Of a DNA stretch of 64,000 nucleotides, positions 15,479 through 15,568 are shown one piece after another. Position 1 is the stretch's first letter. Every line of letters starts with the position of its first letter. The stretch spans positions 47,157,095 to 47,221,094 of the forward strand of contig NC_084464.1 in the NCBI RefSeq assembly GCF_027409185.1, read 5' to 3'. Source of the DNA: Cynocephalus volans (taxonomy: Eukaryota > Chordata > Mammalia > Dermoptera > Cynocephalidae). Made by a program: the position numbers and the translations under genes. The notes beneath the pieces are model-generated. The model was not told the DNA's origin. It saw only the letters and a program-made list of their open reading frames with translations, and ran no database searches.

Positions 15479-15568
15479 CTCTATGATTGAAGTCCTGTGA
15501 GTATTTCCCACTGAGGGCAAAGTGTCTTGGAATTCTGCCTATCAGCTCTATAATGTGCACAATGTGGT
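15479..15568 (-). CDS. SRPK1: candidate alternative (mutually exclusive) exon 15-like of SRPK1
   Basis: 90 bp, no stop, with AC at the start and G at the end, the same phase as canonical exon 15. Upstream is CTTACCCTTCTATTTTAG; downstream is AGAG/GTAGTG. With exon 14 it reads [20 protein letters not shown] then [11 protein letters not shown]. Against canonical exon 15 about 16 of 31 positions match. Against the SRPK2-type segment, as I recall that family, about 25 of 31 match, with a one-codon gap (SQDF-N instead of SREFFN). D564 and E571 of the docking groove are kept, while the following CMGC insert differs (IPRHFALS instead of VPRKLIVA). It lies 316 bp upstream of exon 15. It is either a functional duplicated exon or a decaying remnant. 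The one-codon loss and weak donor favour caution; the intact frame and splice sites favour function. Confidence 0.75.

Follow-up and report, generated by a model that had tools for sequence, protein, structure and literature searches.

The kinase SRPK1 is the one usually associated with SR splicing factors, and drugs are directed at it in cancer and in diseases of the blood vessels. In the 64,000-nucleotide stretch of Cynocephalus volans DNA analysed here (the window), its exons were found on the minus strand from about 46.3 kb down to 13.3 kb, and an additional open block of 90 nt lies between exon 14 and canonical exon 15. We asked whether this block is a second version of exon 15, where it came from, and what kind of kinase its use would produce. 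The block is called exon A (15A) below and canonical SRPK1 exon 15 is called exon B, the exon number following a first-pass annotation of this DNA.

That annotation had described a 90-bp minus-strand block between exons 14 and 15 with an acceptor, a donor GT, the phases of exon 15 and no stop, and each of these features was found. Exon A is bounded by an acceptor and a donor with intact AG and GT dinucleotides (Table 1). Frame 1 of the block contains stops; the split-codon frame, with reading begun at the G that ends exon 14, is open and gives a peptide of 30 residues (+G). Both ends of exon A fall within codons, as in canonical exon 15: two bases completing a split codon open the exon, and a single base of a glycine codon closes it. 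As expected of tandem-duplicated exons, A and B are neighbouring homologous exons of similar length (90 and 93 nt) and the same phases, and exon A has intact splice dinucleotides and an open frame, with a weak donor. Because both lengths are multiples of three, A, B or A plus B all keep the frame. The 31-residue length expected of SRPK1 exon 15A was not found in this copy, which lacks one codon present in its relatives and in exon B (DFFNRR has become DF-NHR). The missing residue lowers the claim that the window copy is functional, not its kinship.

Table 1. Positions of exon A, exon B and flanking SRPK1 features in the window
Feature	Position	Strand	Remarks
SRPK1 exon 14	18949..19018	-	ends ...YTRDE plus first base of the D564 codon
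Exon A acceptor region	15569..15600	-	pyrimidine-rich, ...CTTCTATTTTAG; score 9.0
Exon A (exon 15A)	15479..15568	-	90 nt, 30 residues; ancestral-type version of exon 15
Exon A donor	15473..15478	-	GTAGTG, weak
A-B intron	15163..15478	-	316 nt
Exon B pyrimidine tract	15183..15203	-	about 20 nt upstream of the AG; read by eye
Exon B, canonical SRPK1 exon 15	15070..15162	-	93 nt, 31 residues
Last exon (16), coding part	13282..13466	-	common to both versions

Splice-site strength was scored with frequency tables, the donor ends of some other exons being set by eye and the acceptor scores of exons 4 and 7 being left aside. On this scale exon A has a good acceptor (9.0, a value that about 2% of minus-strand AGs attain) and a weak donor (3.7, with about 10% of minus-strand GTs scoring as well). 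Exon B has a donor score of 7.0 and a weak acceptor (3.2). An A-rich stretch separates the pyrimidine tract of exon B from its AG (15203-15163, minus), and an intron retained in a rhino record, described below, translates almost identically there; the remote tract could reflect a regulated or distant branch point. SINE copies with tRNA-like halves were also seen, all on the minus strand (16853-16700, 16329-16175 and 1670-1642; three matches to the SINE start), and an Rfam tRNA match at 16777-16706 falls within one of them. This SINE appears to resemble the tRNA-Ile dimer SINEs of colugos. A second Rfam tRNA-like match (25633-25706, plus strand, 45 bits) is perhaps another copy.

Comparison of the encoded peptides confirmed the kinship of exon A, with counts close to those given in the first-pass annotation. 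It had put the identity at about 16 of 31 positions with canonical exon 15 and about 25 of 31 with the SRPK2/SRPK3 version; we measured 15 and 24 aligned columns, respectively, the latter against the human SRPK2 A-type segment (SRPK2-A). Identity to a mollusc SRPK was 23/31, and to the mammalian SRPK1-A sequence 27/31. With residues 1-27 of the human SRPK2 segment as query, exon A gave an ungapped score of 123. With the same query the best site in the window outside exons A and B reached 20, and the best of 40 block-shuffled windows 37; a chance origin of the resemblance is excluded. A phmmer search with exon A returned SRPK2 first (2x7g, E=1.7e-10), followed by SRPK1 (5xv7, E=4.8e-5).

When 12 SRPK1 exon peptides were compared with the minus strand, a further copy turned up for exon 15 alone, with a score of 83 of 154. 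No second copy was found for the other 11, whose runner-up sites scored 36 or less, in a comparison from which exons 1-2 and part of the spacer were left out. At the nucleotide level, A and B share 44 identical positions within the first 81 nt, and their differences fall at codon positions 1, 2 and 3 in the ratio 10/5/22 (p=0.002 for evenness). This third-position bias is what a long history as coding sequence leaves behind. Three short inverted-repeat pairs link the A and B regions, none of them convincing.

The distribution of the pair was assessed in three protein searches, from which 120 of 220, 120 of 1380 and, with a mollusc query, 120 of 2392 matches were listed. The records are annotated proteins clustered at 90% identity, many of them software predictions, and species counts are lower bounds. 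SRPK1 exon A was present in at least eight mammals (rhino, Petaurus, Mirounga, Talpa, Sminthopsis, Myotis brandtii, platypus and hedgehog) and, among the matches listed, in axolotl, two turtles, gar, sturgeon and many teleosts. Among the matches listed, SRPK1 records with A alone came from hedgehog (row P0108), axolotl (row P0109) and 11 teleost rows, several of these being software predictions. At least 52 SRPK1-type records carry A followed by B (7 mammals, 2 turtles and 43 fish rows), and SRPK2 records from sharks to mammals have the same arrangement. Strict mutual exclusivity of the two versions, which the first-pass annotation had raised as a possibility, is therefore doubtful, since A plus B keeps the frame and these records, from other species only, hold both. 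Annotated SRPK1 models with exon A may have been prompted by similarity to SRPK2.

A single A-type unit was found in rows with SRPK3-type tails and in mollusc, coral, mayfly and shrimp rows. The best 120 of 2392 matches to the mollusc query all contained two units and were jawed-vertebrate SRPK1 or SRPK2 by name and sequence; no invertebrate or lamprey record with A plus B was among them, where one should rank. Three rows named SRPK3 (P0233, P0234 and P0246) have SRPK2-type tails and the A plus B pair, and are probably misnamed SRPK2. In rhino (Ceratotherium simum), SRPK1 isoform X2 (row P0001) retains the whole A-B intron in frame, with 104 extra residues; the window has a stop and frameshifts where the rhino record reads through.

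To place these exons relative to one another, a tree was built from 67 exon units (43 different) over 31 columns, with 200 bootstrap trees. The 26 B exons of SRPK1 and SRPK2 formed one clade (support 98/91). The window copy fell inside a 12-row clade of tetrapod SRPK1-A (95/92) rather than with SRPK2-A. Fish SRPK1-A adjoined the B clade (93/88), apart from tetrapod SRPK1-A, perhaps through a shared L at the fifth residue, and SRPK1-A was recovered as a single group in 0% of the 200 bootstrap trees. Forcing the A and B exons of SRPK1 together cost 19.8 log units and was not rejected at the 5% level (p-AU 0.071); the same constraint on SRPK2 cost 28.1 log units (p-AU 0.040).

The joint B clade and the same A-B order in both genes make one duplication before the split the simplest account, and these sequences most likely record an A/B duplication that predates the separation of SRPK1 and SRPK2. 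We infer a single origin of B. As the invertebrate and SRPK3-type rows are A-type, exon A looks ancestral and canonical SRPK1 exon 15 derived. The first-pass view of a duplicated, SRPK2-like exon whose use would alter the docking-groove segment stands, with its direction apparently reversed. The defaults of the two genes are reversed as well, SRPK1 using B and SRPK2 using A.

We consider it probable that the block is an ancient exon 15A, one half of a tandem pair that existed before the two genes separated, and that its exchange for B would give an SRPK2-like form of SRPK1; the placement of fish SRPK1-A reduces our confidence in this reading. Under the proposed scheme, the pair, with A upstream of B, would go back to a time in early vertebrates when SRPK1 and SRPK2 had not yet diverged. 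Use of A in place of B would replace residues 564-594, and inclusion of both, as in many records, would double them. The docking residues D564 and E571 would stay, and at the groove centre H would take the place of L568. Such an SRPK1 is predicted to resemble SRPK2 in its docking of SR substrates and in its processivity on them.

The segment encoded by exon 15 corresponds to SRPK1 residues 564-594, numbered on a human protein that we take to be 655 residues long, and takes in the beginning of helix alphaG together with the insert next to it. This numbering agrees with K604 in LKPWGLFE, residues 603-610 (PMC11211491). Residues D548, D564, E571 and K615 of the groove are needed for substrate binding (PMC11211491, PMC10878513). 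D564 and E571 both lie in exon 15, and both are kept in exon A, as the first-pass annotation had stated. The junction of exons 14 and 15 (18949 and 15568/15162, minus) falls inside the D564 codon, and a cancer-linked splice-site mutation of D564 has a predicted gain of function (PMC11809128). At the groove centre, SRPK1 L568 corresponds to SRPK2 H601, and this difference is said to give the two kinases differing processivities, in one discussion sentence of PMC11211491 that rests on an earlier citation.

Exon A replaces L568 with H, the state of canonical SRPK2. H occupied position 568 in 11/11 tetrapod SRPK1-A rows and 129/129 SRPK2-A rows; B exons had L in all 54 SRPK1 rows and in 116 of 119 SRPK2 rows, the other three having M (several of the rows counted here and below are isoforms of one species). 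Fish SRPK1-A had L, not H, in 54/54 rows, and the L/H switch is therefore not general to SRPK1-A. The exchange of A for B also alters most of residues 575-583 and 588-594. Because of H at 568 and the changes across these two stretches, tetrapod SRPK1-A would be expected to have an SRPK2-like groove. Five of nine distinct SRPK1 sequences with structures were aligned, all with exon B, and the two distinct SRPK2 sequences carry A, the version in the human SRPK2 structures 2x7g and 7zkx. A predicted structure of hedgehog SRPK1-A (row P0108) had a mean pLDDT of 54, with 76-92 by ten-residue blocks from residue 561, and its best matches were SRPK1 and SRPK2 structures. The predicted structure of the Myotis A plus B form had a pLDDT of 34; the input alignments differed, with 14 rows for Myotis and 15 for hedgehog. 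Exon A may be included in the mRNA of C. volans, and the product would then be expected to differ in processivity.

Whether the exon is still in use in C. volans was addressed by comparing it with its counterparts. Seven of the eight mammals in which SRPK1-A is annotated, platypus and rhino among them, share one and the same peptide, and Petaurus differs once. The window copy departs from this sequence by A567V, R579H, R593H and the loss of one phenylalanine of 590/591, and its version of the exon was found in 0 of the 252 proteins compared. Relative to rhino, exon A differs at 4/31 positions and exon B at 0/31. In the A-B intron, 87 of 101 translated codons are identical and 14 differ; there are also six frameshift steps, a single codon gap and a single stop. 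Set against 21/108 for the intron with indel steps counted, exon A is no better kept than the adjoining sequence (Fisher p=0.60), and the first-pass argument that a neutral block of this age would not be expected to stay so intact fails for the window copy taken alone. The idea that the comparison with rhino proves constraint was rejected, since exon A has changed about as fast as the intron. The comparison was likewise not accepted as proof of decay, as the intron itself seems well kept. An unchanged rhino exon A would have P=0.10 at the intron rate, which is unremarkable.

The strongest competing reading, which we regard as evenly balanced and which is compatible with an ancient exon 15A, is that the copy in C. 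volans is a vestige: unselected, drifting like an intron, with little or no inclusion, and a step toward loss of the kind seen in Glires, where the SRPK1 cluster is reported absent (Hatje et al., PMC5740500). Two Jaculus rows with B only are in line with that report. Three substitutions and a codon deletion in so stable a peptide, the intron-like rate of change and the weak donor all favour such a reading, as does a rough Poisson estimate, in which the probability of four changes along a single branch of 90 My lies between 2e-6 and 2e-4; it used assumed divergence dates and six placental tips although five are annotated. However, the frame and both splice dinucleotides are intact and the sole indel is a whole codon. 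The adjoining intron, 86% identical to that of rhino in translated codons, may not be a neutral yardstick, and the contrast with other mammals is exaggerated because only species with an intact exon get annotated. In addition, the residues produced by two of the changes also occur in other sequences (H579 in SRPK2-A and H593 in Petaurus). The weak donor and the four changes suggest low use and relaxed constraint here, and the chances that exon A is little used or unused in this species stand about equal.

It is unlikely that exon A acts mainly at the RNA level, as a decoy or regulatory exon whose peptide is of little consequence. The combination of a good acceptor and weak donor in A with a weak acceptor in B would fit such a role, as would the well-kept intron between them. 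Against this, the exon A peptide is nearly invariant and free of stops in annotated mammals, A-B differences concentrate at third codon positions, and there is no decay signal, A keeping the frame alone or with B. Recent transfer of exon A from SRPK2 into SRPK1, or a duplication inside SRPK1 alone, would account for its greater identity to SRPK2 than to exon B and finds SRPK1 A and B not rejected as a clade in a borderline tree test on 31 columns, but we consider either highly improbable and rejected both on distribution and order, since SRPK1 exon A occurs in fish as well as mammals and precedes B in records that have the two, the window copy is closer to mammalian SRPK1-A than to SRPK2, and a B exon of SRPK2 itself likewise follows its A. 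Provided that the records are correct, the presence of A plus B in both genes across jawed vertebrates already contradicts these two readings.

The ancient exon 15A favoured here is not new in every respect. The first-pass annotation had taken it to be undescribed; it is present in public SRPK1 models, and Hatje et al. (2017) include a cluster in SRPK1 in their human catalogue of mutually exclusive exons, as part of a mammalian core set (PMC5740500). That cluster, which likewise consists of neighbouring alternative exons of the same gene, is very probably the A/B pair, because exon 15 is the sole duplicated exon among the 12 tested in the window. The criterion used in that study was that no human reads connect one exon of a pair with the other, except where doing so would disrupt the frame (PMC5740500). 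In the parts of the paper available to us, its text leaves the exon unnamed and is silent on the SRPK2 pair, ancestry and the groove residue (PMC5740500). Exon A is a true, ancient alternative exon, probably one already catalogued in human.

Two other systems offer comparisons. SRPK2 has the same two exon versions in the same order and differs from SRPK1 in its default, A instead of B. The tandem exons of FYN (FynB/FynT) likewise form an alternative pair in a kinase that affects substrate handling (PMC9741552). In that family the paralogues kept one version each, whereas SRPK1 and SRPK2 both keep both, with opposite defaults; the FYN segment covers the SH2-kinase linker and ATP site (PMC9741552), and that of SRPK1 and SRPK2 the docking groove. 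Neither SRPK1 nor SRPK appears in the main text of PMC9741552 or PMC9013439, as far as those texts were available. Among the top-ranked open-access papers, taken without supplements, we found no published text beyond Hatje et al. on the SRPK1 pair, and none that deals with the pair in SRPK2, the opposite defaults or the L/H link; the ancestry, the SRPK2 mirror pair and the link to a processivity residue were not found combined in print.

A wider proposal, which we put forward tentatively and at somewhat less than even chances, is that jawed vertebrates kept the pre-split pair in both genes as a reciprocal switch at the groove centre (L/H at SRPK1 568 and SRPK2 601), at least in tetrapods. Each kinase could then adopt its sister's way of processing SR proteins, and the switch could be under SRPK splicing feedback, with Glires, and perhaps C. 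volans, losing the SRPK1 half. If both genes use both versions, some of the functional differences now ascribed to the two genes may in fact reflect splice choice, and inhibitors aimed at the groove may encounter their target in its other form. The A/B pair is also a natural experiment, with paralogues that have opposite defaults and lineages that have lost one version.
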